DNA from: Kordiimonas pumila
GTDB taxonomy: Bacteria > Pseudomonadota > Alphaproteobacteria > Sphingomonadales > Kordiimonadaceae
Length of the DNA: 64,000 nucleotides
NCBI RefSeq assembly: GCF_015240255.1
Contig: NZ_CP061205.1
Coordinates: 3,334,501-3,398,500 of the forward strand
Direction: 5' to 3'
Notes under the pieces: generated by a model
Told to the model about the DNA's origin: nothing
The model's database searches: none
The model's input: the letters and a program-made list of their open reading frames with translations, nothing else
Made by a program: the position numbers and the translations under genes
In this document: positions 11,046 through 53,623 of the stretch, piece by piece
Numbering within the stretch: the stretch's first letter is position 1
Layout of the letters: every line of letters begins with the position of its first letter

Positions 11046-13388
11046 CTAGAATTGATACCGCGCCTGGAACATAATCTGGCGTGGTGGTTCCTGCCCCTGA
11101 AAGAGACTACCAAAAGAGGTTGGTTGATACCCAGAGAAATTAATCACGGTTTTATCAAACAGGTTTTTACCAATGATATCAAAGCCCCAGCCACTGTCCG
11201 CAATATCAAGCGACAGGCGCGCATCCATACGGCCATAGCTATCCTGAATGGATTGTTCATCATCTGTAGAGTAGGTAAAATAACTGCTAGAGAAAATACC
11301 AATCACCTCGGCTGTCATCGTATAATCTTCTGACACATCATACGTATAGGTTGCAGCAACATTACCGCTCCACTTCGGTGAATAGAGCGTGGGACGACCA
11401 CTTAAATCCTGTACAGTTTCACCCTCATATTGCTGCGCATAGGTTGGTGCAGCATTAGGATAGCTACGGTATGTTGAATCCAGATAGGTGGCATTAGCTG
11501 CAACCTTGAAGCTAGATGACACAAGCCATTGCATCTCCAGTTCCACACCTTTTGAACGCGAAGCAGCTGCGTTGCGAACGATATTAATGAGGCCACCGTT
11601 GCTATTAGTACCCTGAATAGAAACCTGCAGATCAGAAAAGTCGTTCCAGAACAAAGCAAGATTCATGCTGACAGTGTTATCCAGAAACTCACCCTTGATA
11701 CCCAGTTCGTAAGCATCAACAAATTCTGGGTTAAACGGATAGTTAACCGGGTCTGCAGATGTATCAGCAACACTGAAGCCGCCAGACTTGAAGCCGCGCG
11801 AATAGGAAATGTATGTCATCACACCATCGTTCAACTGATATTGCAGTTTGGCGGATGGCAACAGGGCATCGTCCTTGCGGTCAAGATTAATAACGCCAAC
11901 ATTACCAAGCCCAAGCGAACCTGCTATAGCTTCAACATCAGCAGGGAACCGTTCAACGCCGCCGTAATTCTCAGTTGCGGTGCCGTAAATTAGTGCCCAG
12001 TCAAAATCTTTCTTCACGATACTGCCGCGAATACCGCCAATAAGTTTCAACCTGTCAGTCACATTCCAAGTGAAAGACCCAAAGGCTGAGTAAATATCTT
12101 CGGTTTGGTATGCGTTTACACGCTGGCCAAGTGGCAGATAAGGGGCTAAGGGCGCAATGCCGGAGAACGGGCCTGTCAAGAAGAAATAGCTCAGTGATTG
12201 CTCAATATCGAGCGTATAGTGCTGGTAGTAAACACCGGCCATATATTCAAACGTTTCACCGACAGGCGATGCAATCCTGAATTCCTGACTGAACTGTTTG
12301 TATTCCTCTGGCGCTTGAACATTTAACAAGTGCTGTGTTGTGCCATCATCATCCAGATCAAGGTTATATTTATAACCGCCGTAACCTGTTGTAGATGTAA
12401 GAGTATGATCCCCCATCTGGTAGTTAATGGTCAGAACACCTTCATATGTTTTGAGGCGGATTTCGTTACCTTCGTTTGCGACATACTCTTTTGTGTCCAG
12501 ACCAATTGGCACACCTTCAGAAAGGTTCAAGGCACAAAAGCCTGCTGCTGTATAAGGCTCTGGCGGCGGGCAATCTTCTTGGCGCAGGATCAAGCCGCCT
12601 TTATTTACGCTTTTACCAAATTCGCCTTTTAGAATGATCTCAAGATCTTCCGATGGTTCATAAAGCGCCGTAGCACGGAAAGCATAGTTATCTTCATTAG
12701 GTGAGCGGTCATCTGTATTAACGTTTTTCAAATAGCCCTTTTGGCCATTAAGTGTGCCTGCAAAACGCAGTGCTAGTTCATCTGTAACCGGTGTGTTCAC
12801 CGCGCCCTCTAAGGCATAGTTGCCGCCGTTTGAGCCACCAGGACCAATAAGGCCGCGGGCCCAGCCTTCCGTTTCGTGGCTTGGTTTTTTAGTAACAATA
12901 TTAAAAGCACCCGCGATAGCGCTGTTACCAAAAAAGGTACTTTGTGGGCCTTTCAAAATCTCTACATGGTCAAGATCAAGGAACGTTGCCGCCGAATTAC
13001 GTGAGCGGCCATGGTAGATATTATCAACAAATGTACCGACAGATTGATCAAATGACTGGCTTTCACCAGACCCCGTACCGCGCATATAATAGGTACTGGA
13101 GCGACCACTACCAGCAACATGGATAGACGGGTACAATTCAGCGAGCGTTACAACAGATGTCAGGTTTTGCTGGGCAATAGCAGCAGCTCCCACAACCTGC
13201 ACTGATATTGGCACATCTTGCAGGCTTTCATTCCGTTTCTGCGCCGTCACCACAATCTCTTCAAACGAAAAATCGCTCGTGTCTGCAGCCGTACTTGCCG
13301 GTGCAATAGCGGCTGAAGCAGTTAAGAGCGCCACATAACCACAACCACTGCGTAAGCTTTTTTGAATCTTTTTATTTGTTATTTTCAT
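11046..13388 (-). CDS. TonB-dependent outer-membrane receptor
   Basis: The 780-residue protein has a signal peptide (LTASAAIAPASTAA), a TonB-box-like SFEEIVVTAQKR, a plug domain (YYMRGTGSGESQSFDQS, LKGPQSTFFGNSAIAGAFNI) and a 22-strand barrel type C-terminus ending QIMFQARYQF. The ATG has a GGGAGG site. It lies downstream of a small NTF2-like gene on the same strand (75-base gap), with which it may be co-transcribed. It belongs with the catabolic TonB receptors; no siderophore-type domain call can be made. Confidence 0.93.
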   Translation of the reverse strand: MKITNKKIQKSLRSGCGYVALLTASAAIAPASTAADTSDFSFEEIVVTAQKRNESLQDVPISVQVVGAAAIAQQNLTSVVTLAELYPSIHVAGSGRSSTYYMRGTGSGESQSFDQSVGTFVDNIYHGRSRNSAATFLDLDHVEILKGPQSTFFGNSAIAGAFNIVTKKPSHETEGWARGLIGPGGSNGGNYALEGAVNTPVTDELALRFAGTLNGQKGYLKNVNTDDRSPNEDNYAFRATALYEPSEDLEIILKGEFGKSVNKGGLILRQEDCPPPEPYTAAGFCALNLSEGVPIGLDTKEYVANEGNEIRLKTYEGVLTINYQMGDHTLTSTTGYGGYKYNLDLDDDGTTQHLLNVQAPEEYKQFSQEFRIASPVGETFEYMAGVYYQHYTLDIEQSLSYFFLTGPFSGIAPLAPYLPLGQRVNAYQTEDIYSAFGSFTWNVTDRLKLIGGIRGSIVKKDFDWALIYGTATENYGGVERFPADVEAIAGSLGLGNVGVINLDRKDDALLPSAKLQYQLNDGVMTYISYSRGFKSGGFSVADTSADPVNYPFNPEFVDAYELGIKGEFLDNTVSMNLALFWNDFSDLQVSIQGTNSNGGLINIVRNAAASRSKGVELEMQWLVSSSFKVAANATYLDSTYRSYPNAAPTYAQQYEGETVQDLSGRPTLYSPKWSGNVAATYTYDVSEDYTMTAEVIGIFSSSYFTYSTDDEQSIQDSYGRMDARLSLDIADSGWGFDIIGKNLFDKTVINFSGYQPTSFGSLFQGQEPPRQIMFQARYQF

Positions 13389-14025: not shown

Positions 14026-14200
14026 ATCGTAATGTATTCATAATGAATATATCGGAGAGTAAAACACGAACTACGTGTGAAAAATAATAATATAAAACAA
14101 ATAGATAATTATATTCAGGCGTCAAAAAGCAAACATGCCTGCAAAGGCAAAAGCCATATGCAAGCATGCAAGGTCGGTTTAAAATAATGTAATTCTGGCT

Positions 14201-14224
14201 ACACCCGCCTCTAGCAGCGGGTGT
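14201..14224 (-). terminator. Hairpin after the serine-hydrolase fusion gene
   Basis: ACACCCGC / GCGGGTGT forms an 8-bp GC-rich stem 12 bases after the stop of the minus-strand gene. The following minus-strand sequence lacks a continuous T-run, so it is a weak terminator candidate. Confidence 0.5.
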
Positions 14225-14235
14225 AATACAGCTTC

Positions 14236-16578
14236 TTAATGTGCAGGTTTTATATTTTCAAAAATAGCATTCTGCACCGCGTAGGAACGCCAATCATCAA
14301 AATCAAAGTGCCACCATTCATACTCGTAAACGGTAAAGTCTTCAGCTTCCATTGCCGTTTTCAACACGTTACGGTGCCAACGTTGCAGCGATGTCCCCCC
14401 CGGATAGTAGGGGAATGAACGCTCAGACATTTCATCATACAGACCAACCATTTTAATAGGCTCCCCTGTTTTCAGATCATAAAGTGTCAGATCAACTGCG
14501 GAGCCCCTATTGTGGCGTGACCCCTGCGATGGGTCTGCTACAAAGTCTTTGCCAGACATAGGTGTCGCATCCCAGAAAATTTTGGTGACGTACCAAGGCC
14601 TATAAGCATCATGAATAAGCAGGCCGTATCCTTGTTTTTTCAGCCTTTTTGCCGCCCGGCCAAGTGCCTCTGCGGCAGGGCGCTGCATAAAGGCCCGAGC
14701 AGACGAATAAACTGGTGTACCAAGGAAGTTATCATTCGATGCATAGCGGATATCAAGTTTAATATTGTCGCTGTAAGCTGTCACATCCACTAGGTCAGAC
14801 TGCTTAAAGGTGCCGTCTTCATGAGGCGGGCTGGCAGCAAGTGCTTCTTTCCTCAATTCTGCAATAGGCTTCACCGGGTCAATCTTGAAGACATGGCCAT
14901 CAATACCGCCAACCTCTCTTCTTTCAAAAGAAATACCATTAAGGCTAGCCGTATAGACTTTATCCTCACTGTTCTTTTTAAAGGTTATTTCTTCATTTGG
15001 GTACAGGCCATGTGGAGGAAACTTAAAAGTGCCATTCCCCAAATCGGTAAGCGGATAATCAGTCGCCCATTCAATAAGGGCATGCAGCTTGCCGTCTCTT
15101 TCGCTGATATACAAAACATTATGGTCCCAGCCATACTCCCCAAGATACTGTACCCATTCCGGCTTAACAGGAGCGGGCTTAACATCTTCTGCAGCAGCAT
15201 AGTCTTTGCCAAAGACAGTAACGCTAGCATCCGTAAAGCGAATATCTTCACTGTAAGCGACCATATCATCAATAACGATAGCATGGTTGTCTGTTGCTCG
15301 AAGCCTCAGTGACAGGTCATTAACGCGCTCTATATAAAGGTCTTTAAACAGGCGGTATATTCTAATGCTTTCATCCTGGTTTTTATAAAGCCCTGCCACT
15401 TTGGCAACCATGTCATCAGAAACAGGCTTTGTATATGTATAAACAGGTAACGGCTTGCCTTCTTTTTGGGCCATAAGCGCCCTGAGGGCATAATCCGCAA
15501 TCCTGTTAACAATGCCGTTTGCCATATCCATATTGGTTGAAATGGCTACACCGATCTTTTTGTTCGGCAACACTTTCATTTGCGTCGCAAAACCATAAAT
15601 AGCACCGCCGTGCGAGACAGACTTTTCTCCGTCCAGTTCACTCAGCATAAAACCGATACCAAACGAACGATCACGGGCGCTTTTCACATCTCCTTGCGGG
15701 GACCACATTTGATCAAGCGTATCTTCTTCAATAAAACGGCCATTTACGCCCTGCCCCTTATCTATAAGCGCTTTCATGAACAGGGCCAGATCACCCATTG
15801 TCGCATACATGCAGCCAGCAGGTGCGATACCCAGCTCAAATGTTGGAGCAATAGAACGAGTACCCTGATAATTTATCATATAAGCTTCAGGGAGACTTTT
15901 CCGAACATGAGCAGACGGCACAAAGGCACTGTCTTTCATACCAAGAGGTTGTAGAAGATTAGTCTCCAGAACCTCTGCAAATGGCTTGCCTGCAACCTTT
16001 TCCAGAACTCGGCCCACAACAGCAATGCCTGCATTTGAATATTGCACCTTTGTCTTTGGTGCATATACCAGTGTTGTACCGTTCAGGCTTTGAACAGTTT
16101 CAGCTAAGGACGGCGCTTCAGGGTCAAAATAACTACCAACAGGCGTTTCCCGCACCAGACCTGATGAATGGCTCATCAGCATACGCAGCGTAATAGGGGT
16201 GCCGTAAGGGTTATGGGGTTTAAAGTCTGGCAAATATGTTGTTACAGGAACATCAAGGTCCAGCAGGCCTTTCTCAACATAATGCATAACGGCAATGTCA
16301 GTGAATAGTTTTGAAACTGATCCAATGCGGTACGTAGTATCATTATCAGCCTGTAGGCTTGGGTTCTTTGCATCAGCACCTACACCGCCCGACCAAACAA
16401 TGCCGTTTTCGTCAACAAGCACAATAGACAGCATTGGCAAGCCTTTATCTGCTGCTTCATGCTCAATAATATCCTGTACCTTTTTAAAAGGTGCACCCGC
16501 ATCTTCTGCAACAAGAGGTATCACTGCCAGCAAGCAGGCAGTGATACATGCGGTGATAACCATATAAAAGCGTTTCAT
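14236..16578 (-). CDS. Exported fusion: class-C beta-lactamase-type serine hydrolase + VanX/DdpX-type D-Ala-D-Ala dipeptidase
   Basis: The 780-residue protein has a signal peptide (1-24). The serine-hydrolase domain carries S87-V-S-K90 (SxxK) and Y180-S-N, the class C beta-lactamase/esterase signature, and runs to about residue 390. A middle beta-rich part (about 390-590) resembles the C-terminal extension of such hydrolases. From about 598 there is a peptidase M15D domain: R660 in AYRP, H689 and D696 in SRHNRGSAVDL, E754 and H757 in EYEWWH. The D-to-second-H spacing of 61 equals that of VanX. Both active sites look intact. It should act in the periplasm on D-amino-acid-containing peptides or their esters. 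The CocE-type hydrolase lies 9 bases upstream in the same operon. Each half alone is a known family; the combination is unusual. Confidence 0.88.
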   Translation of the reverse strand: MKRFYMVITACITACLLAVIPLVAEDAGAPFKKVQDIIEHEAADKGLPMLSIVLVDENGIVWSGGVGADAKNPSLQADNDTTYRIGSVSKLFTDIAVMHYVEKGLLDLDVPVTTYLPDFKPHNPYGTPITLRMLMSHSSGLVRETPVGSYFDPEAPSLAETVQSLNGTTLVYAPKTKVQYSNAGIAVVGRVLEKVAGKPFAEVLETNLLQPLGMKDSAFVPSAHVRKSLPEAYMINYQGTRSIAPTFELGIAPAGCMYATMGDLALFMKALIDKGQGVNGRFIEEDTLDQMWSPQGDVKSARDRSFGIGFMLSELDGEKSVSHGGAIYGFATQMKVLPNKKIGVAISTNMDMANGIVNRIADYALRALMAQKEGKPLPVYTYTKPVSDDMVAKVAGLYKNQDESIRIYRLFKDLYIERVNDLSLRLRATDNHAIVIDDMVAYSEDIRFTDASVTVFGKDYAAAEDVKPAPVKPEWVQYLGEYGWDHNVLYISERDGKLHALIEWATDYPLTDLGNGTFKFPPHGLYPNEEITFKKNSEDKVYTASLNGISFERREVGGIDGHVFKIDPVKPIAELRKEALAASPPHEDGTFKQSDLVDVTAYSDNIKLDIRYASNDNFLGTPVYSSARAFMQRPAAEALGRAAKRLKKQGYGLLIHDAYRPWYVTKIFWDATPMSGKDFVADPSQGSRHNRGSAVDLTLYDLKTGEPIKMVGLYDEMSERSFPYYPGGTSLQRWHRNVLKTAMEAEDFTVYEYEWWHFDFDDWRSYAVQNAIFENIKPAH

Positions 16579-16587
16579 ACTCTTACC

Positions 16588-18522
16588 TTACTGCGCTGCG
16601 CTAGCGGTTACATCTTGGTTACCGGTCAAGACAGGTAGCTCCAGATGAGACGGAAACTGGACGGAGCGATAAATATCATGCTCGGCAGTCTTAAAGTCTT
16701 TTTCCGTTGCACGATAAATATCCATAAATTGCTGCGGGTTGCGGTCGTAAGCCGGGAACCAGCTACTATGAACCTGCACCATAATCCGGTGCCCCTTTTT
16801 AAAAGTATGGAACTTATCCCAGATATTGAACGAAATAGGGGTCACTTTGCCCGGCTTAAGTGGTTTTGGGTCACTCATGCTTTCACGGTATTTAGCGCGC
16901 ATAACTTCAACACCAACCAGCATCTGATAATCACCCATTTTTACCTTTTGATGTTCAATCTCCACATCGGGCGCATCGCCAGGGTACACATCAATCAGTT
17001 TCACAAAATAGTCTGCGTCTGTCCCTGTTGTCGATACAAATAGACTAGCAAGAATAGGCCCTGCAATGGTGATGTCCTCCTCTAAAACATCGGTACGGTA
17101 TGTCAGAACATCAGGTCGCGTAGACACTTGGCGCTGGTCTTCTATCATCCAGTCATGGCCCGGCGCTGTGATAATCTCGGTTGAAAAGGGTACAGGCTTT
17201 GCCGGGTCATTCACATATTTATCAAATGCTTTTTTGCTTTTATCGGCAGGTTTATTGAACGACAGCTTGCCGCCTTCCTGAAAATACAGGTTTTTAACTT
17301 TACTGGCTTTAGGCGGCCACTGGTCAAACCTGTGCCACTCATTGTTGCCGGTTTCAAATACAATTGCCTCAGCCGGGTTCCAGTCCCCCTTGCCTTTCAG
17401 GTTATATTCAAAGAACGGGAACACAATGTTCTTTTGGTAATATTCAGAGGTTTTTGAACCAAACTGAATATCCCCAAGATATGAACCATCCATAGTAAGC
17501 CAGCCGCCATGACGCCACGGCCCCACAACAAGCGTACTCTTGTTGCCCGGCGTGGTTTTTTCTATCTCGTTATAAATAGAGATCGGGCCGTAAAAGTCTT
17601 CTGCATCAAACCAGCCTGCCACATTTAAAATGGAGTGGTTGATGTTTTTCATGTGCGGCAAAGCCACCTGATCTTTCCAAAACTTATCATAGTTAGGATG
17701 GTCGATAAAATCATTCCATGCAGGAATGGCGCCGCCGAAATATTTTTCATTCAGTTCTGATGTTGGTCCTGCATTCAAAAAGAACTCATAACCCCACGGG
17801 GTTCCATAATCAAAAGGCTTGGCAAGCTCGGTGGTTAGATCATCACGCTTGCGCGCTGCAAAGTTCATCCAGCTAAAGCTATACATCAGCCGGAAAGCAC
17901 CATTATGGTGCCAGTCATCGCCGACAAACATATCAGACGGTGAGGCTTGCGGTGATGAAGCAACAAGCGCCGGGTGCGCATCCACCATACCCATTACGGT
18001 TGTCCAGCCGGGATAGGAAATGCCCCACTGCCCTACCTTGCCGTTATTTCCTTCTATATTATGCAGCAACCACTCAATGGTATCATAGTTATCTGTACTG
18101 GCATCAATAGCGACAGGATCATCCTTGTTGTCACGAATGCTGCGAATAACCTTAAAGTCACCTTCTGACTTATAAGTGCCGCGCAGGTCCTGCAAAACAA
18201 TGATATACCCCGACTTCAGGAAATCAACCGACGGTGCCATGCGCATAACAGGCGGAAAATCATCACCGTAAGCTTTAATGGAATAAGGTGTTCTGAACAA
18301 AAGAATAGGATAGTCTTTTGAACGGTCCTTCGGCCGGTACACCGCAGTGAACATCTTTTTGCCGTCACGCATGGGGATAGAATATTCCGCCTTGTCGTAG
18401 TGCGCTTTAACATCGTAGTTTTCATTTGCATCAGCATACACTGGCGGCTGTGCCAAAAGCATGACCAGAACAACTGCAGGCCAAAGTGCCACCTTGTTCA
18501 AAACCCTATATATCTGTATCAT
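16588..18522 (-). CDS. Exported CocE/NonD family alpha/beta hydrolase (X-Pro dipeptidyl-peptidase-like)
   Basis: The protein has 644 residues from ATG 18522, which has GGGGAG 7 bases upstream; longer frames to 18573 have worse ribosome sites. The signal peptide is VALWPAVVLVMLLAQPPVYA. The catalytic nucleophile Ser sits in GQWGISYPGW, and WFDAEDFYGP and GPWRHGGW provide the Asp and His regions. The C-terminal jelly-roll (PASLFVSTTGTDADYFVKLIDVYP) is standard for the family. Members cleave acyl esters or X-Pro peptides. It is upstream of and almost touching the serine-hydrolase/VanX fusion, so the two periplasmic hydrolases probably process one peptide- or ester-like compound. Confidence 0.9.
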   Translation of the reverse strand: MIQIYRVLNKVALWPAVVLVMLLAQPPVYADANENYDVKAHYDKAEYSIPMRDGKKMFTAVYRPKDRSKDYPILLFRTPYSIKAYGDDFPPVMRMAPSVDFLKSGYIIVLQDLRGTYKSEGDFKVIRSIRDNKDDPVAIDASTDNYDTIEWLLHNIEGNNGKVGQWGISYPGWTTVMGMVDAHPALVASSPQASPSDMFVGDDWHHNGAFRLMYSFSWMNFAARKRDDLTTELAKPFDYGTPWGYEFFLNAGPTSELNEKYFGGAIPAWNDFIDHPNYDKFWKDQVALPHMKNINHSILNVAGWFDAEDFYGPISIYNEIEKTTPGNKSTLVVGPWRHGGWLTMDGSYLGDIQFGSKTSEYYQKNIVFPFFEYNLKGKGDWNPAEAIVFETGNNEWHRFDQWPPKASKVKNLYFQEGGKLSFNKPADKSKKAFDKYVNDPAKPVPFSTEIITAPGHDWMIEDQRQVSTRPDVLTYRTDVLEEDITIAGPILASLFVSTTGTDADYFVKLIDVYPGDAPDVEIEHQKVKMGDYQMLVGVEVMRAKYRESMSDPKPLKPGKVTPISFNIWDKFHTFKKGHRIMVQVHSSWFPAYDRNPQQFMDIYRATEKDFKTAEHDIYRSVQFPSHLELPVLTGNQDVTASAAQ

Positions 18523-18897
18523 TAACATTCTCCCCAGAATGATTTTCTGCACATTCACCCATATACCACGCATACCATTTTGATATATTATCTCAATGTA
18601 GGTTTGGCGTATCTATTGGAATAAAGCAGCTAAAATTAATTATTAGGCAGCCATAATATATAAATATAATGCATTGTAAACATATATGGCAGCTATAATA
18701 ATAAGATGGAGTGTGAGATGTTGACAACGATATGGAGGCTATAAACTCACCAAAAGCCAATGCCTAGCCATTTCAAAGCCCTGCTATACAAATTTCTGGT
18801 AAATACTCTGCATATCCACTAACAAACTACATGATAAGTAGAGAATACATACAGTTCTCCGCTCTGGTTAGTATCAAACCCTTATTCAGGAATAGGT
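18523..18897. promoter_or_regulatory. Divergent intergenic region between CocE-type hydrolase and Rrf2 regulator
   Basis: These 375 bases are AT-rich with short runs such as TAATATATAAATATAATGC, consistent with promoters on both sides. I see no gene, hairpin terminator or perfect palindrome in it. An AGGAATAGG Shine-Dalgarno precedes the Rrf2 start. Confidence 0.4.
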
Positions 18898-19332
18898 ATG
18901 ATATCGCAAAAAGCCAAATATGCTCTTCGTGCCCTTTTAGAACTCGCGAAAACAAAGCCAGGTGAAGCACTTCTGATTACAGAAATCGCTGCACGCCAAA
19001 ATATTCCTAAAAAATTTCTTGAGCAAATCTTGCTCGACCTTAAACACCAAGGCCTATTACATAGTAAGCGGGGGCGCGGCGGCGGTTACAGCCTTTTAAG
19101 GGCCCCCAATCTTATTAGCTTTGGCCAAGTTTTGCGTATCATTGATGGCCCGATGGCCCCCTTACCCTGCCTTAGCCGCATGGCTTACCGGCTCTGTGAA
19201 GATTGTACAGACGAGCATGCCTGCGAAATTCGTCGCGTTTTTGCTACCGCTTATGAACAAACAGCCAAGGTTCTTGATAGCACGACGCTGGCTGATGCTA
19301 TTACCGCAGGGAAGCTTCCTATAGAGCCTTAG
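18898..19332 (+). CDS. Rrf2 family transcriptional regulator with cysteine cluster
   Basis: The 144-residue protein has an N-terminal winged helix (MISQKAKYALRALLELAK, IPKKFLEQILLDLKHQGLLHSKRGRGGGYSL), which is the Rrf2/IscR pattern. Four cysteines follow in the order C-x8-C-x2-C-x5-C (PCLS, CEDC, ACEIR), more than the three typical of IscR/NsrR, so binding of an iron-sulfur cluster is plausible but unproven. It may sense redox, NO or iron status. It lies divergent from the CocE operon and converges on the LuxR gene 61 bases downstream. Confidence 0.85.
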   Translation: MISQKAKYALRALLELAKTKPGEALLITEIAARQNIPKKFLEQILLDLKHQGLLHSKRGRGGGYSLLRAPNLISFGQVLRIIDGPMAPLPCLSRMAYRLCEDCTDEHACEIRRVFATAYEQTAKVLDSTTLADAITAGKLPIEP

Positions 19333-19393: not shown

Positions 19394-22114
19394 CTAAGAC
19401 GAATACTCAGGTACCATGCCCTGGTTTCTTACAAGCTGTACTAATTCGCTCCGTTTTGACACATCAAACTTGGCAAAAATGCTCTTCAGGCGGTATTTAA
19501 CTGTGTTGGGGGAAATACCCAGTTGGAGCGCAATTTCCTTATTGGAAAACCCATGCACTAATTCTTTTAAAACCTCTATTTCGGCTATGGTTAAAGCATT
19601 TTCATCCTTTAACCTGCTTTTCTCCCAATTCTTCATGTCTCTTTTAAGGTCGATAAGAAAATTTGTTCGGTATCTGTCTGCCGGTAGCAGCGTATCGCTC
19701 TTAAGAATTAAGGTCACAAGCGGCAGTAACCAGTAGGTATAGTTGATATATGTTTGCTTAAACCCTTTAAAAAGGCCTTCCTGCAAAGCCTGATCAAACA
19801 GGGCTGCAGCTTGCATTGTATCCCCCCGGCCATACCGCGAAATGGCAGCAACACTATACAGAGCAATAAGATGGCGGGTATCCCCTGAAGCTTCTGCGGC
19901 CTTACTGTGCTCCGCAATAAGGGCATCTACCTGTTCATGCTGTCCATTAGACAGATAAAAAATACCAAGCCCAATCGCTATATGACCACTCATAAAATGG
20001 AAGGGCTGTTTTTCAGTTTCCAGCGCGGCTTCAAGGGAGCCAACATAAGGCTGAGCTTCCATATGCTGGCCGTTCTGGCATAAATAAAAAATAGTCTCGC
20101 AGTCAGCGAGCAGTGAAAGGCGCTTCAAATACCGCGATTTTGCAACGGCCTTTGCGCGTTCCAGCAATCCAAGAACCTCATTAATGCCAGAGCGCTGCCA
20201 AGCAATAGCAGCGGCAGATGAATATGCTGCTGCATACAGTTCAAACCAGCCATCGGCTTGTTCAATAAGTGATAAGGCATCTAAAAGTCTGGTTTCTGCC
20301 TCATCAAAGGCATGCCGTTCAACAAGAAGCTCCGCTAGAAAAATGGCATTATGGGCTGCAAGGTCCGTGTTTTCCCCAAGGCGAATATCAATTTCTTTTT
20401 CATTTTGTCTAAGAATAACTTCTGCCTCATCCAGCCTGCCTTGCGCAAAATATGCCTGTACCTGCTTAAACCTTATAAACATTTCACCGTACAGGGATTG
20501 TAAAATGCGGTAGTGGCTTGCCGCCTCAGCACACGCTTCGTGTGTTTGCCGAAACAGGCGCATAGCATAACATTTTGTTGCCAGCGAATCTGACAGCAAC
20601 GCGTGTAACAGATGGTCCTGCTTTGGGATTTGCTGTTTCAGGGCCTCTATCTCGCTAATCTCTTCAAACGAAACACGGTCATCGGCATAATCTGAAAGGG
20701 TATTTTCGATTATCTTATGATCGATCATATCCTGCTCAGACCACAGGTCGTTATTATCCGTGTTTAACTGCTTAAACCGCTGGTGCGCTTCATCAATATT
20801 ACCCGCCTTGATCAGCAAAAAAACCCGCGCCAGTAAAAGCTTCGGAAAATTCTCAATTGCAGCATCAGCAAGCTTATGGATAGCGGCACGGATAATCTCG
20901 ATCCGACCATCCATAACCATACGCCAGCCACCCGCATCACTTAGAATAGAGGCTGCTAAAGTATCGTTATGAGCTTGCTGTGCATGATATATGGCGCGCC
21001 TTATATACCCACGTTCTTTAAGCCATGTCGCGGCCTGCTCGTGCATCCCCTGAACTGCATCAGGATGACGCTTTTTAAGCATGTCACGTAAATATTCCAG
21101 AAAAACAGCATGAAAACGAAACCACTGACGATCGTTTTCAAGAGGTTCTAGAAAAAGGTTACGTTCATAAAGCTGTTCCAATATCAGCCAGCCATCAGAA
21201 CGGTTTGTAATGGTATTAGCAATATCGCCGTTTACCCGGTCAAGAATAGCGGTTTTCATTAAAAAATCTTGCTCGTCTTCAGGCAGTTCAGACAAAACCT
21301 GTTCGGTAAGATAGCGCGCCATATCAGTTGTTTTTTCAGCAAATTCAGCTATTTGCCCAACGCGTTGCTTGCTACCTAATAACCATAACCGCAGCATCTG
21401 CAATGCCATTGGCCAGCCTTCAGTATATTGCCAAAAATTGCCTATCTGCCTTATATCCGTGTCCGACATATGAAGATCAAGCAGGCTTGCCGCCTCTTCT
21501 AGCGAAAAGCGTAAATCATTTGCGGTAATTTCAAGTAAATCATCGTGCGCACGCAGGTTTTCAAGGTCGATATTAGGTCGCCATCTAGAGGCAACTACAA
21601 AGTGCACATGTGCCGGCATATTGCGCAATAAAATGCGAAAAAAGCTGTCCGTTTCATCAGATTGAATGCGGTTATATTCATCAAGAAAAATCACCAGCGG
21701 CCTGTCACTGACAGCAACTGCGTTGATAAATATAGTCATCAAAACCTTCAATGACATTTTTTCGTCAACACGGCCAATATTTGAGAGAACGCTTTCTTCC
21801 AAGTAGCCCGACTTGATACAGGCTGTAATCACATGGATGATAAAAGCAGACTGTGAGGCCTCTTCCTCCTCCAACGTCAACCACGCTGTTGCAACTTTTT
21901 GCTTCTGAAGTGTTTTAAGCCACTGGCTTAACAGGCTGGTCTTTCCGTACCCTGCTGCCGCATGAACAACAGTAAGCCTGCAAGCCAGAATTTCCTCAAT
22001 TCTGACCAGCAGGTTTCTGCGTTTTATATAGCCTTTACGACTTTGGGGTGCGAGCTTAGTAGACGCAACCATTGCTATCGAAGAAAAGGCTCCATTTTTG
22101 GTATCTGGATGCAT
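19394..22114 (-). CDS. Large ATP-binding LuxR-family (MalT/LAL-like) transcriptional activator
   Basis: The protein has about 906 residues. Near residues 50-70 is a Walker A in HAAAGYGKTSLLSQW, then a Walker B-like LVIFLDEYNRI and the STAND-ATPase winged-helix region. A long helical TPR-like sensor covers about 380-820. The C-terminus is a LuxR HTH: LTIAEIEVLKELVHGFSNKEIALQLGISPNTVKYRL. Such proteins bind an inducer with ATP and activate target promoters as oligomers. The start is ATG 22114 or TTG 22120; the latter has better spacing to AAGGG. It sits directly downstream of the amidohydrolase and TonB receptor, which makes it the best candidate for the regulator of the ACCCAT-repeat promoters at 26.3, 27.5 and 31.6 kb; that link is inference. 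Confidence 0.9.
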   Translation of the reverse strand: MHPDTKNGAFSSIAMVASTKLAPQSRKGYIKRRNLLVRIEEILACRLTVVHAAAGYGKTSLLSQWLKTLQKQKVATAWLTLEEEEASQSAFIIHVITACIKSGYLEESVLSNIGRVDEKMSLKVLMTIFINAVAVSDRPLVIFLDEYNRIQSDETDSFFRILLRNMPAHVHFVVASRWRPNIDLENLRAHDDLLEITANDLRFSLEEAASLLDLHMSDTDIRQIGNFWQYTEGWPMALQMLRLWLLGSKQRVGQIAEFAEKTTDMARYLTEQVLSELPEDEQDFLMKTAILDRVNGDIANTITNRSDGWLILEQLYERNLFLEPLENDRQWFRFHAVFLEYLRDMLKKRHPDAVQGMHEQAATWLKERGYIRRAIYHAQQAHNDTLAASILSDAGGWRMVMDGRIEIIRAAIHKLADAAIENFPKLLLARVFLLIKAGNIDEAHQRFKQLNTDNNDLWSEQDMIDHKIIENTLSDYADDRVSFEEISEIEALKQQIPKQDHLLHALLSDSLATKCYAMRLFRQTHEACAEAASHYRILQSLYGEMFIRFKQVQAYFAQGRLDEAEVILRQNEKEIDIRLGENTDLAAHNAIFLAELLVERHAFDEAETRLLDALSLIEQADGWFELYAAAYSSAAAIAWQRSGINEVLGLLERAKAVAKSRYLKRLSLLADCETIFYLCQNGQHMEAQPYVGSLEAALETEKQPFHFMSGHIAIGLGIFYLSNGQHEQVDALIAEHSKAAEASGDTRHLIALYSVAAISRYGRGDTMQAAALFDQALQEGLFKGFKQTYINYTYWLLPLVTLILKSDTLLPADRYRTNFLIDLKRDMKNWEKSRLKDENALTIAEIEVLKELVHGFSNKEIALQLGISPNTVKYRLKSIFAKFDVSKRSELVQLVRNQGMVPEYSS

Positions 22115-22176
22115 GAACAATCATTACCCTTACCTTTAAGACAAGGTATTTTAAACACGTTCAGGTACACTTCAAC

Positions 22177-24016: not shown

Positions 24017-26173
24017 TTAGAACTTGCGGCTTACAGTTGCCACTATGCGCCGGTCGATCCCTGGGGAACAAGCACCGTATGATGGCGGGCTCCACATTGA
24101 ACAGGCCGCATAATATTTTTTATTCAAAACATTATTGGCGTTTAATCGGAAACTCCAGTCTTTGTAAAACGCTTCAACTGTAGCATCAACAAGCGTAACC
24201 GAAGGTGTTTCAAAGATGTTGTAATAGTCAATTTTTGACCCAACATACCGTACACCAGCACCAGCCCGAATGATCATGTCACCTGAATTGACAAAGTCAT
24301 TCATTGCCCAGAAAGAAGCACCGTGTTCAGGTAAGTCTTCAACCCTGAAACCTTCACGGCCCTGATTATCACTGGTAATTTCAGCTTTGGTATAGCTGTA
24401 GGCAGCTGTCAGCGTAAGCGTTTCAAACACATTGGCAAGCGCTTCAAACTCAAAACCTTTTGAATTGATTTCGCCAGACTGAATGAAGTTCTGGATATTA
24501 TCAGGGTCTGTTGTCAGGAAGCCGGATTCAGTGATATCGAAGTAAGACATCGTGATCAGAGTTGATTTATTAGGTTGATACTTCACACCAACTTCATACT
24601 GCTTGCCAGCCTGTGGATTATAGGCATTACCATAAAAGTCACCGCCAAATACCGGCTGGAACGATTCTGAATAGCCCGCATAAGGGGAAAGCCCGCCGCC
24701 CACATCAACAATCACACCAAAACGCAGTGTCGTTGCATGGTTTGGTTCTTCTTCAACACCACTAATTTCCGAGGTTGACCGGTCACGGCGAATACCCGCA
24801 ATGAAGGTTACACGGTCTTTATATTTAATCTGGTCCTGCAGATAGATACCAAGCTGGGTGCTTTTTGTATCATAGCCATTGGTAAAACCTGAATCGACAT
24901 CAACATAATAATCAGGGTTTGTAAGATCGAGCGGCGCAGGGCTACCACCTGCATAACACCCAAAGAAACCTGCATAGCCATCACAGGAAAAGCCTTCGCG
25001 GCGATCCTGTTTGAATTGGGTATAATCTACACCAACCAGAACCTTATGTTCAAAAACACCTGTATTAAAGTCGAACTTAACGTTGTGATCAGAGTTTAAA
25101 ATTTTATATGTCTCATCAAGAACATAAAACTCCCGCTGAATAATGGTTTCGTCAGCGTCATTAAAGGGCGTAACACCATCTGCCGTATCGGCATATATTT
25201 CAGCATAATCAACATCATGCTCGTAATAACGCATACGACCAGAGTAGCTGATCCAGTCTGTAAACCTATGGTCAATCATAAGCGTACCAGACGTATGCGT
25301 GGTGTCCATATGGTTAAAATCTTTGTCACCGACAAAGAAGTCGATCGGGAGCCTGTCCTCTTTACTTGCGCCCTGTGTTTTTGAGAGCGGTAGATAGGTC
25401 TGTGTGCCCATATCATCTTTCTGGTAAAGTACCAGAAGCGTAATATCTGTATCCGGGCCGGGCGACCATGTGACCGAAGGCATAATAAGGATACGATCAT
25501 CGGCCTGATCTTCTGCCTGTAATTTAGCGTCCCTAAACAGGCCTACAAAACGGGTTGCAACTGTATCGCTCACACCACCAGTTACATCAACCATAAACTG
25601 TTTGCGGTCATCGGTACCAAACTGTACGCCAATTTCACCGCCAAACTCAAAATTCGGCGTTTTACTAACAGCATTAAGAATGCCGCCTGAGCCACCAGCA
25701 CCATAAAGCACAGCTGAAGGCCCGCGCAACACCTCTGCCCGCTCCAGTGTAAATACTTCCATCCGGGCGCCGTATACGAAGTCCGGCATTCTGTTAAGGC
25801 CATCAATATACTGTGCTACACCAAAACCACGAGCCGAAAAACTGTCATAGCGGGTATCGATACCAGCAAGCTCTGTAGCAACGCCTGCGCTGTACCGGAA
25901 AATATCCTGAAAGTTTGTTGCCCCTTGTTCCTTAAACTGATCTTCAGTGATAACGCTGATCGCCTGAGGAATCTCCATAATTTTAGCGTCAGTTTTGGTT
26001 GCTGCCCGCGCTGAATCAGCAATAATCACAATCTCTTCAAATATCTCATTATCTGCAGCATCCTGTGCATATGCAGCAGCACCTGTCATGCACACACAAG
26101 CCGTGCTTGCCATTAAAATACGGCGCGACAACTGTCTGATGTTGCGATTTTCGGAATTCAAATATTCTGTCAT
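24017..26173 (-). CDS. TonB-dependent outer-membrane receptor, siderophore-receptor-like
   Basis: The 718-residue protein has a signal peptide (MASTACVCMTGAAAYA), TonB-box-like EIVIIADSA, and the plug motifs IPQAISVITEDQFKEQGATNFQDIFRYSAGV and VLRGPSAVLYGAGGSGGILN that mark the FhuA/FpvA-type receptors. The barrel ends RRIVATVSRKF. Despite the siderophore-type plug, its setting beside an exported amidohydrolase and hydantoinase genes suggests a cyclic amide or peptide ligand, possibly metal-bound. ATG has a GGGAAG site. It is one of the three genes preceded by the ACCCAT-N14-ACCCAT promoter (26311-26373). Confidence 0.92.
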   Translation of the reverse strand: MTEYLNSENRNIRQLSRRILMASTACVCMTGAAAYAQDAADNEIFEEIVIIADSARAATKTDAKIMEIPQAISVITEDQFKEQGATNFQDIFRYSAGVATELAGIDTRYDSFSARGFGVAQYIDGLNRMPDFVYGARMEVFTLERAEVLRGPSAVLYGAGGSGGILNAVSKTPNFEFGGEIGVQFGTDDRKQFMVDVTGGVSDTVATRFVGLFRDAKLQAEDQADDRILIMPSVTWSPGPDTDITLLVLYQKDDMGTQTYLPLSKTQGASKEDRLPIDFFVGDKDFNHMDTTHTSGTLMIDHRFTDWISYSGRMRYYEHDVDYAEIYADTADGVTPFNDADETIIQREFYVLDETYKILNSDHNVKFDFNTGVFEHKVLVGVDYTQFKQDRREGFSCDGYAGFFGCYAGGSPAPLDLTNPDYYVDVDSGFTNGYDTKSTQLGIYLQDQIKYKDRVTFIAGIRRDRSTSEISGVEEEPNHATTLRFGVIVDVGGGLSPYAGYSESFQPVFGGDFYGNAYNPQAGKQYEVGVKYQPNKSTLITMSYFDITESGFLTTDPDNIQNFIQSGEINSKGFEFEALANVFETLTLTAAYSYTKAEITSDNQGREGFRVEDLPEHGASFWAMNDFVNSGDMIIRAGAGVRYVGSKIDYYNIFETPSVTLVDATVEAFYKDWSFRLNANNVLNKKYYAACSMWSPPSYGACSPGIDRRIVATVSRKF

Positions 26174-27443: not shown

Positions 27444-27506
27444 ATGGTATGCATGAAGAGCCATGCCCCCAACAGTTATGATGGGTATATTCTACCGAAT
27501 ATGGGT
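27444..27506 (-). promoter_or_regulatory. Shared-regulon promoter B (DUF4198 gene)
   Basis: On the minus strand, ACCCAT (27506-27501), 14 bases, ACCCAT (27486-27481), 8 bases, TTGGGG as -35, 17 bases, TACCAT as -10 (27449-27444). The repeat overlaps the last codons of the upstream permease gene. Layout matches promoter A base for base in spacing. Confidence 0.65.
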
Positions 27507-28784
27507 GACATCTGGCTGAGGGGACCATTTACGCAGGATCATATGCAATACAACTGCAACCAGTGTTGCATCTAAGGCTGGCGCTGTTGTTAAGGCGATA
27601 ACATCATACATGCCTGCAAGCCCAACTGCGGCTGAAACCAGCCATGTTACGATACTACGCCACCTGACAGACGGGCCTTCTGTCAGGTTTTTTGCGTCGT
27701 AACCGTTTCCAAATACCGTGAAGTTGTCGATCACATAAATTGCTGCGATTGGTGGAATAATAACGCCTAATAACAACAAGAAAGGCACAAAGGATTCCAC
27801 TATACCCACAACAGCCATAATGCCGCCAATTAACGCCCCAACAATCGTAAAGACCCACGGCTTAATAGACCGTATAGTCGCGGCCAAACTGAGGCTGTAG
27901 GAATACAGGTTTACAGAGTTTGCAGTCCATGTTGAAAACACCAGAATAACAAGCGCAGGAAGCCCAAGGCCAAACCCGGTTATAATATTCATAATATCCA
28001 CATCGTCTGTTGCCATGGTTGGCACTGCCGCCAAAAGAACTAAAAGCGGCGTCGCTATAGGGAACGACAGCAACATACCAATAACAGCTTGCTTATTTGT
28101 AGTAATAAACCGCGACAGATCAGGCATCGCCGCCACCGTTAGAAGGTTCCCCCCCACGATTGTTGACAACGCAACACCAAATGTCATCGCAACAGGCGGG
28201 GTTGGGTCAGTCATAACCACACCAAATTTTTGAATACTCATCACAAAAACAGTTATGAAAATACCCAATAATATCGGGATGGCCCACAGGGCTAATTTAT
28301 TAATAGCCTTAAAGCCAAAAATTGTGGTGATGGCCATAAGCAGGCTACCTGCCATTACAATGACACCAAACGGCCCCGCTATGTGATATAATTCTCTAAT
28401 AGCAGCAACCATGGCGCTGCCAAAAAACGACGCATTCACACCAAACCAGCCCAAGTGTATGATAGCCAGCATAATATTAACAACAACCGCACCTTTCAGG
28501 CCGAAAGAATGTTGCACCAAGAGGTATGTGGAAAGGCGGGAACGAACACTTGCAATAGCAGTAAGTGACCCCATTATACATAAAATAACGCCGCCCAGAA
28601 AAGCACAGAAAAGCGCATCTTTTAACCCTAAAGCGCTCCCCACCTGAGCACCATTTAAAAACGTCGCCAAGCCAACATTGATACCAATAATAATAGCCGC
28701 CACGCGCCAGCCACTAATAGTTTGCTCTTCTGGGACAGTAGAAACTGAATAATCTTCAATTGTATCTGTTTCACTGAGCATCAT
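27492..28784 (-). CDS. NCS1-family permease (cytosine/purine/hydantoin type)
   Basis: The protein has 430 residues from ATG 28784, with a GGAAAGG site; it overlaps the end of the DUF917 gene by 14 bases. About 12 hydrophobic helices begin SGWRVAAIIIGINVGLATFLNGAQVGSALGL, the CodB/NCS1 opening helix, and LATYLLVQHSFGLKGAVVVNIM (as STYLLVQHSFGLK here) matches the family's substrate-site region. NCS1 permeases symport nucleobases, allantoin or hydantoins with Na+ or H+. Its place as third gene after hydantoinase/oxoprolinase and DUF917 genes points to uptake of the compound those enzymes process. Confidence 0.88.
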   Translation of the reverse strand: MMLSETDTIEDYSVSTVPEEQTISGWRVAAIIIGINVGLATFLNGAQVGSALGLKDALFCAFLGGVILCIMGSLTAIASVRSRLSTYLLVQHSFGLKGAVVVNIMLAIIHLGWFGVNASFFGSAMVAAIRELYHIAGPFGVIVMAGSLLMAITTIFGFKAINKLALWAIPILLGIFITVFVMSIQKFGVVMTDPTPPVAMTFGVALSTIVGGNLLTVAAMPDLSRFITTNKQAVIGMLLSFPIATPLLVLLAAVPTMATDDVDIMNIITGFGLGLPALVILVFSTWTANSVNLYSYSLSLAATIRSIKPWVFTIVGALIGGIMAVVGIVESFVPFLLLLGVIIPPIAAIYVIDNFTVFGNGYDAKNLTEGPSVRWRSIVTWLVSAAVGLAGMYDVIALTTAPALDATLVAVVLHMILRKWSPQPDVTHIR

Positions 28785-29919
28785 TAGAGCCTTTCCAGCC
28801 ATTCAAGGCCTCTATAGATCTATACCTATCAGACATGCCAAAAGCTTTCGGCCCCATAATTTCAAGAGCTTCCGGTGTCCTCAAGACACTGGGTGCACTT
28901 ACACCCACTACTTTCACCCGCTGCCCGTACTTAATTTGCTCAGTCGTTATTGTATGCGCCGTTTCTCTATCCATCACTGAAATAATATCAGGAACCGTTG
29001 CATATATTTTATCGCCCACACGGGCGATCAGATTTTCGTTTTGGAATTCTATTTCCATCTGGTTTTTACCGGCAAAATCTTCAATCAATAAATGCCCAAC
29101 AGAAAAACCCTGTTTTGTCTCTCGTTTCACATCCATAATTTTACCGTCGAACAGAATGCCAGCGGCACCATAATGCGGAAAGGAGCGCATGACATCGAGC
29201 AATGCCTCAAACGGGTCTGCGCCCTTTTCTTTGGCTTCCCGAATACTGCGGCCAATTTCTACAGCGATTGACAGCGTTCCGTGAATAGCATGGTCTTTTA
29301 CCTGTTTCCCGCTTTGAACATATTCAAACAAATGGCATATACCACCCAGTGATACCGCCGCGGCGCGTGCAACACGCTCTTCTGTGATATTATCGACCGC
29401 ACCGATCACAAAAGAGTTCCCTTTGGCATCTGTCAGCACAGCGGGGCTTGCAGAAACACCGTGCACATTAAAGATAACCATTTGAGATTCAGGAAATGCC
29501 CGCCCCATGCCGTCGCAGTCCACAACAGGCAACCCTGTTTTAACGGCAAGAATAAGCGGAGCCAAACCATTGCTGCCGCCAATTTCCACAGGGAAAACCG
29601 CATTCACTTCCCGGCCCATTATTTCTTCCAGCATTTCAAGGCCTGCAAGAGCTTCCGTGCCACTTGGCAACTTTTCCAGCGACACCGTAGGGGCACCAAG
29701 CCAGCCGCACGGCGCAACCAGATCTTTATCAGAAAGTTTGCTCGCAGGTATCAAATCAATATGAAAATCTGGGCCCTTTTTCTCAATTAATATGGAGAGC
29801 TCAAGCAAAGCATAATGGGGGTCACCGCCACCGCCTGACCCTAAAAATGCACACCCAACAGCAAGGTCATTAAGAGCTTGCTGGTTAAGTGTTACCGGTT
29901 TTAAATCACTCTCAAACAT
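28771..29919 (-). CDS. DUF917 family protein
   Basis: The 382-residue protein has the family opening LAVGCAFLGSGGGGDPHYA, PCGWLGAPTVSLEKLPSG, and the EIGGSNGLAPLILAVKTGLPVVDCDGMGRAFPESQM block. DUF917 proteins are almost always paired with hydantoinase/oxoprolinase proteins and are thought to form a complex with them; a relative is the S-methylthiohydantoin desulfurase. Here the partner gene is 3 bases upstream and the permease overlaps downstream, a tight three-gene operon. Its own catalytic chemistry is not established. Confidence 0.9.
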   Translation of the reverse strand: MFESDLKPVTLNQQALNDLAVGCAFLGSGGGGDPHYALLELSILIEKKGPDFHIDLIPASKLSDKDLVAPCGWLGAPTVSLEKLPSGTEALAGLEMLEEIMGREVNAVFPVEIGGSNGLAPLILAVKTGLPVVDCDGMGRAFPESQMVIFNVHGVSASPAVLTDAKGNSFVIGAVDNITEERVARAAAVSLGGICHLFEYVQSGKQVKDHAIHGTLSIAVEIGRSIREAKEKGADPFEALLDVMRSFPHYGAAGILFDGKIMDVKRETKQGFSVGHLLIEDFAGKNQMEIEFQNENLIARVGDKIYATVPDIISVMDRETAHTITTEQIKYGQRVKVVGVSAPSVLRTPEALEIMGPKAFGMSDRYRSIEALNGWKGSNDAQ

Positions 29920-29922
29920 AGC

Positions 29923-31521: not shown

Positions 31522-31561
31522 AGGCAATTATCTCACTTCACATACATATTTATCTGCATGA

Positions 31562-52585: not shown

Positions 52586-53623
52586 CTAATTGCCATTCCG
52601 CATTCGTAGAATTTGAATAATACGGTCATAAACAATGTCTGTAAGCAATTCTGTATCATCGCCGTTCGTATTCACAAACTGGATCACTACCGTATCAATA
52701 TCTCTGTGATAACGCGCTATACTTACATAGCCTAGCACCCAGCCTTTATGCTCGTATTCATAAATTGACGCGTATATATCCTGCTCTTTATCAGTAAATA
52801 ACGTGCCATCATTTAGAGCTCTCAGAAAAACACCCACATCCTTAGCGGTTGCAACATACCCTTGATCAAGCTCTTTAAGGTCATCGTCATACCCTACAAA
52901 ATAGCCGCTCATAAGCTCGCCTAAATTAATATCATTTATGGAGAAAAAGGTTCGTTTCAGGCCAAGGGGCACTAATATTTCATCTTTAATATAGTGTTTG
53001 TGATCATAGCCCAGCGTCTTAGTCATTATCTTACCAAGCAGCAGGTAATTTGTGTTGGAATAGCTGTAATCGCTCCCCGGCTTAAAATCTGCTGGTGTGT
53101 CTAAAATCAAATTTAAGTTTTCTTCGCGCCCAATAGATTGTTCTGACCAATGAAAATCATCATGATCTGTGTAATTTGGTATGCCGCTTCGGTGTTGCAC
53201 CAACATGCGTACTGTAATCTCGTCAGCATACTCAATGCGCCCCACGAGCGACGGCACATAGTCCGCAAGCGTTCCATCAAGTGACAAGGCGCCGTTCGCT
53301 ACAAGTTTAGCTACGGCAGACGCATTATACAATTTGCCGATGCTCGCAATTTTGAAAAGCGCGTTTGGATCTGCAGGAATTTTTTTATCTCTATTATGCC
53401 AGCCGCTGGCATAAAATTCAGCTTCTTGTCCCTCCTTTTGGACATAAACAATGATGCCATCCAAGCCATGGTTAACTGCCTCATCAACTTGTTCTTGAAC
53501 GGTCGCAGGGAGAGGGGCAAAATAATAAATCGCAAACTCCCAAGGGGCGAATATCAATATGCTGCTGACGGTCAAAAAAACCGCTATCATCACTCGTATT
53601 ATTAGTTTTTTTCTATTTTTCAT
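52586..53623 (-). CDS. Serine hydrolase, class-C beta-lactamase-like, membrane-anchored
   Basis: The protein has 345 residues from ATG 53623. An N-terminal hydrophobic segment (VMIAVFLTVSSILIFAPW) acts as signal anchor. FKIASIGKLYNASAV holds the SxxK catalytic Ser-Lys; YSYSNTNYLLLGKIM holds the YxN motif. This is a D-alanyl carboxypeptidase/esterase-type fold facing the periplasm. It is shorter than and not closely similar to the serine hydrolase at 14236. It sits alone in the accessory region. Confidence 0.87.
   Translation of the reverse strand: MKNRKKLIIRVMIAVFLTVSSILIFAPWEFAIYYFAPLPATVQEQVDEAVNHGLDGIIVYVQKEGQEAEFYASGWHNRDKKIPADPNALFKIASIGKLYNASAVAKLVANGALSLDGTLADYVPSLVGRIEYADEITVRMLVQHRSGIPNYTDHDDFHWSEQSIGREENLNLILDTPADFKPGSDYSYSNTNYLLLGKIMTKTLGYDHKHYIKDEILVPLGLKRTFFSINDINLGELMSGYFVGYDDDLKELDQGYVATAKDVGVFLRALNDGTLFTDKEQDIYASIYEYEHKGWVLGYVSIARYHRDIDTVVIQFVNTNGDDTELLTDIVYDRIIQILRMRNGN

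Follow-up and report, generated by a model that had tools for sequence, protein, structure and literature searches.

An exported fusion of an S12 serine hydrolase and an M15D dipeptidase, widespread in bacteria and linked in some relatives to D-amino-acid genes

The Fusion Gene and Its Protein

The stretch of Kordiimonas pumila DNA analyzed here (the window; 64,000 nucleotides, positions 3,334,501 to 3,398,500 of contig NZ_CP061205.1) contains a gene that joins a serine hydrolase domain of family S12 and a zinc dipeptidase domain of type M15D in a single open reading frame (ORF; Table 1), a protein that may take part in the use of peptides containing D-amino acids. An earlier note on this DNA had described one exported protein with both domains, and this is borne out by the ORF, by Pfam matches to Beta-lactamase (E = 1.8e-58; 198.7 bits against a gathering score of 27) and Peptidase_M15 (E = 4.1e-32; 112 bits against a gathering score of 27), and by a putative signal peptide read from the sequence, where the AlphaFold2 model presents a helix (residues 2–18) followed by a low-confidence segment (residues 20–24). 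The opposite (plus) strand carries many stop codons across the same interval, the minus-strand frame being the ORF. The inverted repeat past the stop codon may mark the transcript end; it has no adjoining T run and is absent from the terminator-scan listing. An 11-pair hairpin within the region coding for the signal peptide (16518–16547, minus strand) was rejected as a conserved element, as it was not seen by eye in six other fusion starts when these were folded.

Table 1. Features of the window at and around the fusion gene
Feature	Position	Strand	Remarks
S12–M15D fusion gene	14236..16578	minus	780 aa ORF
Putative signal peptide, about residues 1–24	16507..16578	minus	read from sequence; possible lipobox-like ITAC (lipobox pattern scan)
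S12 serine hydrolase domain, residues 35–354	15517..16476	minus	Pfam PF00144; S87, K90, Y180, N182, H323
First beta-barrel, about residues 388–463	15190..15417	minus	strands in predicted models
Second beta-barrel, about residues 472–555	14914..15165	minus	resembles C-terminal barrel of DAP (1ei5), SurE, Ulm16, IS11
M15D zinc dipeptidase domain, residues 593–764	14287..14802	minus	Pfam PF01427; R660, H689, D696, E754, H757
9-bp perfect inverted repeat	14200..14225	minus	immediately past fusion stop codon; read from sequence
CocE/NonD-family S15 hydrolase	16588..18573	minus	TIGR00976, E = 2.5e-81; PF02129 and PF08530
Rrf2-family regulator	18898..19332	plus	PF02082, E = 2.4e-38; divergent from CocE–fusion unit
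MalT-like LuxR-type regulator	19394..22120	minus	PF17874, PF00196; MalT model 296.6/537 bits, below cut-off
TonB-dependent receptor, downstream of fusion	11046..13388	minus	PF00593, PF07715
TonB receptor	24017–26173

All catalytic residues named in the earlier note were found at the positions claimed: S87 and K90 lie in SVSK, Y180 and N182 in YSN, and H323 in HGG of the S12 domain, and R660 lies in YRPW, H689 and D696 in SRHNRGSAVD, and E754 and H757 in EWWH of the M15D domain. In VanX, such a set provides the zinc ligands (H/D/H), the catalytic Glu, and the substrate Arg. Conservation was read from an alignment of 50 fusions (A2: the window protein, those of genomes G015 and G011, and 47 of the 77 loci described below; the other 30 loci had long, truncated, or unchosen ORFs). 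The five M15D residues were invariant (50/50), and those of the S12 domain nearly so (S87, Y180, and N182 in 49/50 each; K90 in 48/50). The G011 copy (L034:9002–11230) has AVSE in place of SVSK and has lost YxN together with about 40 residues before it, while its M15D domain is intact.

The protein did not reach the NCBIfam equivalog cut-offs for VanX (100.3/320 bits), DdpX (149.9/176), AmpC beta-lactamase (64.8/415), AmpH (111.4/266), or the PRK13128 D-aminopeptidase (50.2/443); the best models for the two halves were of the AmpH and DdpX types, both under cut-off. Residues 605–762 matched VanX (1r44; phmmer E = 1.4e-21), and the M15 domain is, as judged by these matches, an M15D relative that is not classed as VanX or DdpX. 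Among solved structures, the best phmmer match of the S12 half was Pab87 (2qmi; E = 3.4e-35).

Structure Models and the Two Barrels

The AlphaFold2 model of the fusion, built from alignment A2, had a mean predicted local distance difference test score (pLDDT) of 90.9 and a predicted template modelling score (pTM) of 0.85. Compared with structures in the PDB, its S12 half was equally close to Pab87 (2qmi) and the esterase IS11 (7spn; Z = 41.4 for both, the listed matches having Z of 36–41), the superposition on Pab87 giving a root-mean-square deviation (rmsd) of 5.9 over 396 residues. The Lip3 DL-peptidase (Z = 38.7), ClbP, and class C beta-lactamases were also among its structural kin; a search for DL-peptidase in the open-access papers available listed none. 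Matches to the S12 domain take up the whole VIA listing of the complete model, so the absence of VanX from it is uninformative.

The region between the two enzyme domains, modelled alone (pLDDT 88.8; pTM 0.68), presented two small beta-barrels. The second aligned with the barrels of Ulm16, IS11, DAP, and SurE (VIA-align Z = 10.1–12.5; 79–85 residues; rmsd 2.0–2.5), including residues 421–519 of DAP (1ei5; Z = 11.0; rmsd 2.4; 83 residues), at a sequence identity of only 14–21% to the DAP, SurE, and Ulm16 barrels, and the top Foldseek match of the barrel region was likewise 1ei5 (E = 4.7e-5). For the first barrel, Foldseek aligned 202 columns with 1ei5 at a TM score of 0.34, and the VIA rows covered mostly the second barrel. 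Because the second barrel matches DAP-type barrels, residues 1–555 resemble a DAP-like S12 enzyme that has gained an M15D domain. An internal sequence repeat was rejected as the source of the two barrels, the local score being 29 as compared to 22.5 ± 3.7 (maximum 40) for shuffled sequences.

Distribution of the Fusion

A scan of public genome contigs yielded 557 relatives, the best 80 of which were taken as loci; at 77 of these the fusion was present in one ORF, with an identity of at least 46%, and the remaining three (L082, L083, and L116), which had no single ORF, were excluded. The 77 loci belong to Planctomycetota, Acidobacteriota, Gemmatimonadota, Bacteroidota, Ignavibacteriota, KSB1, and Alphaproteobacteria. 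Because it is so widespread, the architecture is not unusual, and rarity, which the earlier note had suggested, was rejected. By the same note's own criterion, its reading would fall if the architecture proved to be that of a common, already characterized enzyme; common it is, and we found no description of an S12–M15D fusion in the available parts of the open-access literature (PMC6403190 and PMC2651629 among it). Both halves represent known families, and their fusion, although frequent in public genomes, appears undescribed in that literature.

Within Alphaproteobacteria the fusion is sparse. Among 118 genomes (that of the window and its relatives), full fusions were also found in G073, G100, G014, G015, and G007 (54–68% identity), G011 carries the degenerate copy described above, and a copy in G104 is cut by a contig end; when 385 genomes were sampled across the class, no more than two candidates being scored per listed genome, only the window's own fusion passed a threshold of E = 1e-80. 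Six alphaproteobacterial fusions, including that of the window, formed one clade (support 98/83); the G011 fusion was placed outside it, a position that is unsure because of its long branch (2.43).

Partial relatives of two kinds were also found. S12-only proteins from Nitratireductor and Ensifer match residues 23–554 or 27–554 (33–34% identity), and separate proteins made of a second barrel and an M15D domain (L035, L042, and L043; genus g26 of the related family f8) match residues 448–776 or less (47–48% identity). At L035 the gene for such a barrel–M15D protein lies beside genes for a GGDEF/EAL protein and a cysteine-desulfurase-like pyridoxal-phosphate enzyme, and the other g26 loci appeared similar by eye. 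Extended versions of the fusion include an in-frame amidohydrolase–S12–M15D protein in one 1389-aa ORF (L122:8153–12322) and an S12–M15D–S12 protein in one ORF (L136:9878–13471), both by Pfam, and two proteins in which another S12-like part precedes the fusion, as read from the sequence (L108:8499–12113 and L096:9701–13210).

Genes beside the Fusion in Relatives

In a minority of its relatives the fusion is linked to probable genes for D-amino-acid conversion. The alphaproteobacterial clusters contain homologues of DgcN and/or DgcA, an M19 dipeptidase, an amidohydrolase of the PRK09061 type, a putative permease, and extra S12 enzymes. Gene orders were DgcA, CocE, M19, S12, S12, fusion, MacB-like at L028; amidohydrolase, DgcN, M19, S12, DgcA, fusion, permease at L029; amidohydrolase, permease, DgcN, hydrolase, fusion at L030; and M19, amidohydrolase, permease, DgcN, DgcA, then fusion and S12 at L032. 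At L033 (G104) a permease gene alone stands beside the truncated fusion, and by eye none of the cluster genes was present on the L031 (G015) contig. In G011, a D-serine ammonia-lyase gene is directly next to the fusion (TIGR02035; 455.5 bits, cut-off 368.25), and a DgcN–DgcA pair lies about 12–13 kb away. Two S12-only plasmid relatives are found among genes for an ABC importer, a dipeptide epimerase, and a D-serine ammonia-lyase (Nitratireductor) and for an ABC importer, an alanine racemase, and M55 (Ensifer).

The 77 loci included 766 neighboring ORFs, the top-ranked cluster types being mixed hydrolases that hold S12 enzymes (23 loci), the enolase superfamily (14 loci), and DgcN (9 loci). Homologues of both DgcN and DgcA lie close to the fusion at six planctomycete loci (L096, L101, L108, L109, L111, and L136). 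At L101, L111, and L136 the DgcA gene is next to the fusion or overlaps it, in the same orientation, the two frames overlapping at L136; at L109 an Asparaginase_2 gene and at L096 a gene for a protein with an amidohydrolase-like part lies between, and at L108 the pair is divergent. Five acidobacterial and gemmatimonad loci (L085, L088, L118, L119, and L133) carry instead a member of TIGR01928, the OSBS/NSAR family (315–345 bits; cut-off 200.65), adjoined by a GNAT-like gene at L118, L119, and L133; L119 also carries an M20 hydrolase and a permease. TIGR01928 members above the cut-off are frequent in such genomes, being present in 27 of the 31 searched. At L076 a gene for an M55 D-aminopeptidase adjoins the fusion. 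A Pfam scan of nearest neighbors covered 135 of 197 candidate ORFs at 73 non-alphaproteobacterial loci; the commonest families were Beta-lactamase (5), amino-acid permease (4), enolase superfamily (4), and esterase (4), and most of the 134 matched families were seen once or twice.

Genes around the Fusion in the Window

The fusion is preceded on its own strand, after a gap of 9 bp, by the CocE-family gene, so that the operon described in the earlier note is probable, and the TonB receptors that it had placed nearby are present (Table 1). CocE-like genes occur at 4 of the 77 other fusion loci, which is no significant excess. A second CocE copy in the genome of the window (G000), with 95% identity over 644 aligned positions (L064:6169–8106; G000:C1 about 3909169–3911106), lies near genes for a TonB-type receptor and an S12 hydrolase and probably results from a recent duplication. 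Elsewhere in the window, an unfused S12 hydrolase is encoded at 52586–53629 (PF00144), and 27492–31527 and 33364–35187 hold a separate unit of genes for a purine/cytosine-type permease, an S-Me-THD-like protein, and a hydantoinase/oxoprolinase, near a gamma-glutamyltranspeptidase gene.

The same genome contains a D-amino-acid cluster without fusion at about 1.28–1.30 Mb and two further DgcN–DgcA pairs; each of the three DgcN–DgcA-like pairs (L060, L061, and L062, at 2.85, 0.69, and 1.29 Mb) has an S12 hydrolase within 15 kb. Six of the 18 S12-type matches in this genome (fusion included) have one of the three DgcN homologues within 15 kb, as compared to 0.40 expected, although tandem copies among them are not independent.

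A Possible Role in D-Peptide Utilization and Its Alternatives

We propose, with a probability of about 0.58, that the fusion is an exported bifunctional hydrolase that frees D-amino acids or short D-peptides from peptides with D-residues, providing carbon and nitrogen. As we infer its substrates, its location, the order of the steps, and the activities of its neighbors, the S12 domain, with barrels like those of DAP and Pab87, would cut peptides at D-residues, either in the periplasm or on the surface of the cell, the resulting D-terminal dipeptides would be split by the M15D domain, the products would be imported by permeases, and cytoplasmic enzymes would invert or deaminate the imported D-amino acids. 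The last of these steps may involve N-acetylation via DgcN–DgcA homologues in some alphaproteobacteria and planctomycetes, N-acylation via a GNAT enzyme and an NSAR-family racemase in some acidobacteria and gemmatimonads, and D-serine ammonia-lyase in one relative. Peptidoglycan stem peptides, a leading natural source of D-peptides, would be the likeliest supply. The copy in the window may serve the same purpose despite its distance from the DgcN/DgcA clusters of its genome.

The gene linkage on which this proposal leans was compared with a control set of 79 arbitrary contig stretches (1.16 Mb; an eightieth was absent) from 48 of 64 planctomycete, acidobacterial, and gemmatimonad genomes, set against the flanks of the 77 fusion loci (1.03 Mb). 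Inversion-type genes (DgcN, DgcA, NSAR, or GNAT) were found at 17/77 fusion loci and 1/79 controls (the lone control match being a GNAT), D-aminoacylase-like amidohydrolases at 13/77 and 1/79, and S12 genes at 15/77 and 1/79. After removal of the four alphaproteobacterial loci, matches to the DgcA seed, NSAR-type enzymes included, remained at 11 loci against none (p = 1.8e-4), DgcN at six against none (p = 0.009), the amidohydrolase at ten against one (p = 0.0025), and the APC permease at eight against one (p = 0.01), p values that are optimistic because the seeds were taken from fusion loci and the loci are related. In planctomycetes, 33 genomes match the whole fusion (L082 among them, not as a single ORF); 19 of these hold DgcN (21 copies), which lies within 10 kb of the fusion in six, as compared to about 0.06 expected by a hand calculation. 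The proposal is also favored by the retention of both active sites, by the closeness of the S12 half to Pab87 and of the second barrel to that of DAP, by the M55 gene at L076, the D-serine ammonia-lyase gene of G011, and the three-part protein of L122, by the surroundings of the two S12-only plasmid genes, and by the S12 genes close to DgcN homologues in the genome of the window.

Several observations weigh against the proposal. Fully 60 of the 77 fusion loci carry no inversion-type gene and 55 carry neither such a gene nor a D-aminoacylase-like one, many of the contigs being short; M19, the YkvI-like permease, CocE, GNAT, and M20 individually showed no significant excess at fusion loci; and the controls were drawn from three phyla, while the fusion loci also include Bacteroidota and other phyla. 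None of the DgcN and DgcA homologues beside fusions that were scored exceeded its NCBIfam equivalog cut-off (464.9/480 and 390.6/400 bits in alphaproteobacteria; 283–287/480 and 214–226/400 at the two planctomycete loci scored), so that the function of these homologues is uncertain. GNAT was matched weakly (E about 1e-5), and TIGR01928 is named for o-succinylbenzoate synthase, its members at the fusion loci being candidates for NSAR activity by family resemblance. The names "D-aminoacylase-like" (model PRK09061) and "YkvI-like" are those that we presume to apply, and the YkvI-like protein had no Pfam or NCBIfam match. In the window itself, ten seed families (DgcN, DgcA, NSAR, GNAT, M19, D-aminoacylase-like, YkvI-like, APC permease, D-serine ammonia-lyase, and M55) gave no match among the 54 ORFs at E = 1e-3, and the fusion, at 3.33–3.40 Mb, is near none of the three DgcN homologues of its genome (0.69, 1.29, and 2.85 Mb), which lie about 0.5 Mb or more from the window. 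The nutrient role put forward in the earlier note is supported, and narrowed, by the probable D-to-L conversion genes beside several relatives, whereas the window lacks them.

The lack of these catabolic partners in the window slightly weakens D-peptide foraging and slightly raises the alternative that the protein trims or recycles stem peptides of the cell's own wall in the periplasm, as a DD-carboxypeptidase combined with a D-Ala-D-Ala dipeptidase. The chemistry would be identical, the best NCBIfam models for the two halves (AmpH and DdpX types) fit such a task despite scores below cut-off, and RpiR/SIS-like regulators occur at 5 of the 77 fusion loci (one of them Pfam-scanned). We nevertheless regard own-wall turnover as unlikely, given the patchy distribution of the fusion, with a single passing copy in the 385-genome class sample, the catabolic nature of the partner genes in relatives, and the absence of any wall-recycling family from the 25 commonest of the Pfam families matched by the nearest neighbors scanned (135 of 197 candidate ORFs). 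The earlier note had favored a nutrient or antibiotic-processing role "rather than wall recycling", a contrast that is not established, as stem peptides are a leading D-peptide source and Pab87 is reported, in the part of its description available, to cut muropeptides (PMC2651629). It is also unlikely, to much the same degree, that only one half is functional, with M15D as the enzyme and the S12 part as an esterase of other purpose or as a structural or regulatory partner. The degenerate S12 domain of the G011 copy beside an intact M15D domain, the separate barrel–M15D proteins of f8 g26, and the equal structural closeness of the IS11 esterase and Pab87 are consistent with such a division; however, the S12 catalytic residues are retained in 48–49 of 50 fusions, which would be unexpected of a scaffold, and the G011 copy sits on a long branch.

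The remaining alternative, that the S12 domain opens and the M15D domain finishes peptide antibiotics or toxins with D-residues, draws on the kinship of the S12 half with ClbP and the Lip3 DL-peptidase, besides class C beta-lactamases. We consider such detoxification improbable, more so than the two explanations above: no resistance cassette was noted among the 18 Pfam-scanned proteins of the 54 window ORFs, permeases, racemase-family enzymes, and further hydrolases are among the genes that recur beside the fusion, and an M15D dipeptidase would be of little added use. Antibiotic processing, the other role offered in the earlier note, found no positive support, and a role in vancomycin resistance was rejected, as no Van-type ligase family was matched among those 18 proteins and the VanX equivalog cut-off was not reached.

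Comparison with Known Systems and Implications

Each half of the fusion has counterparts of simpler build. Ochrobactrum DAP (1ei5) and the PBP-type cyclases SurE and Ulm16 present an S12 core followed by barrels, as the fusion does, and unlike it are not known to have an M15D domain; VanX and DdpX (MEROPS M15D) share the M15 domain with its zinc and catalytic residues and, unlike the fusion, are known as single-domain proteins. The S12 relatives on Nitratireductor and Ensifer plasmids combine S12 and barrels and are located in D-amino-acid/dipeptide gene clusters; they lack M15D, and in the two that were read no signal peptide was visible by eye. The nearest characterized precedent for the S12 half is Pab87, with which it shares an S12 core and a barrel. 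Pab87 belongs to the CubicO self-compartmentalizing proteases, in which an octameric chamber is formed. A D-preferring aminopeptidase activity and a muropeptide DD-carboxypeptidase activity have been reported for Pab87, which acts on D-amino-acid peptides and whose gene is set among peptide transport genes; unlike for the fusion, one lipocalin domain and no M15D domain are described in the part of that source available (PMC2651629).

The adjoining GNAT-like and NSAR/OSBS-family genes at L118, L119, and L133 recall the NSAR route, the activities of these enzymes being suggested by their families only. That route, reportedly from Sakai et al. 2006, is said to convert D- to L-amino acids with GNAT and deacylase steps. 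The DgcN–DgcA D-glutamate pathway, reportedly set out by Yu et al. 2023, is represented by homologues near the fusion in several members of Alphaproteobacteria and Planctomycetota. In the available parts of the papers that describe this pathway, the fusion is not mentioned (PMC12363236, PMC10845958).

Peptides rich in D-amino acids are part of the refractory organic nitrogen in oceans and soils, and to our knowledge the hydrolase side of their bacterial breakdown is little known. The main text of a survey of D-amino acids, in the part available, contains none of the terms dipeptidase, VanX, D-aminopeptidase, and D-aminoacylase (PMC12363236). A conserved protein with two intact active sites of D-peptide type, linked in distant phyla to two inversion modules, represents a testable candidate, its function being testable because the linkage involves two different inversion routes. 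Annotation by a single domain could mislabel such genes as beta-lactamase or VanX. Tentatively, and with odds somewhat short of even, the S12–barrel–M15D protein may be the signature enzyme of widespread, undescribed D-peptide utilization loci, analogous to polysaccharide utilization loci. If so, such a locus would comprise an outer-membrane receptor, the exported bifunctional hydrolase, further D-specific hydrolases, a permease, and either of two D-to-L inversion modules that are unrelated to each other (N-acetyl or N-succinyl), and these loci would have been put together repeatedly, in phyla of the sea and of soils, as a means of feeding on peptidoglycan or other refractory organic nitrogen rich in D-residues.

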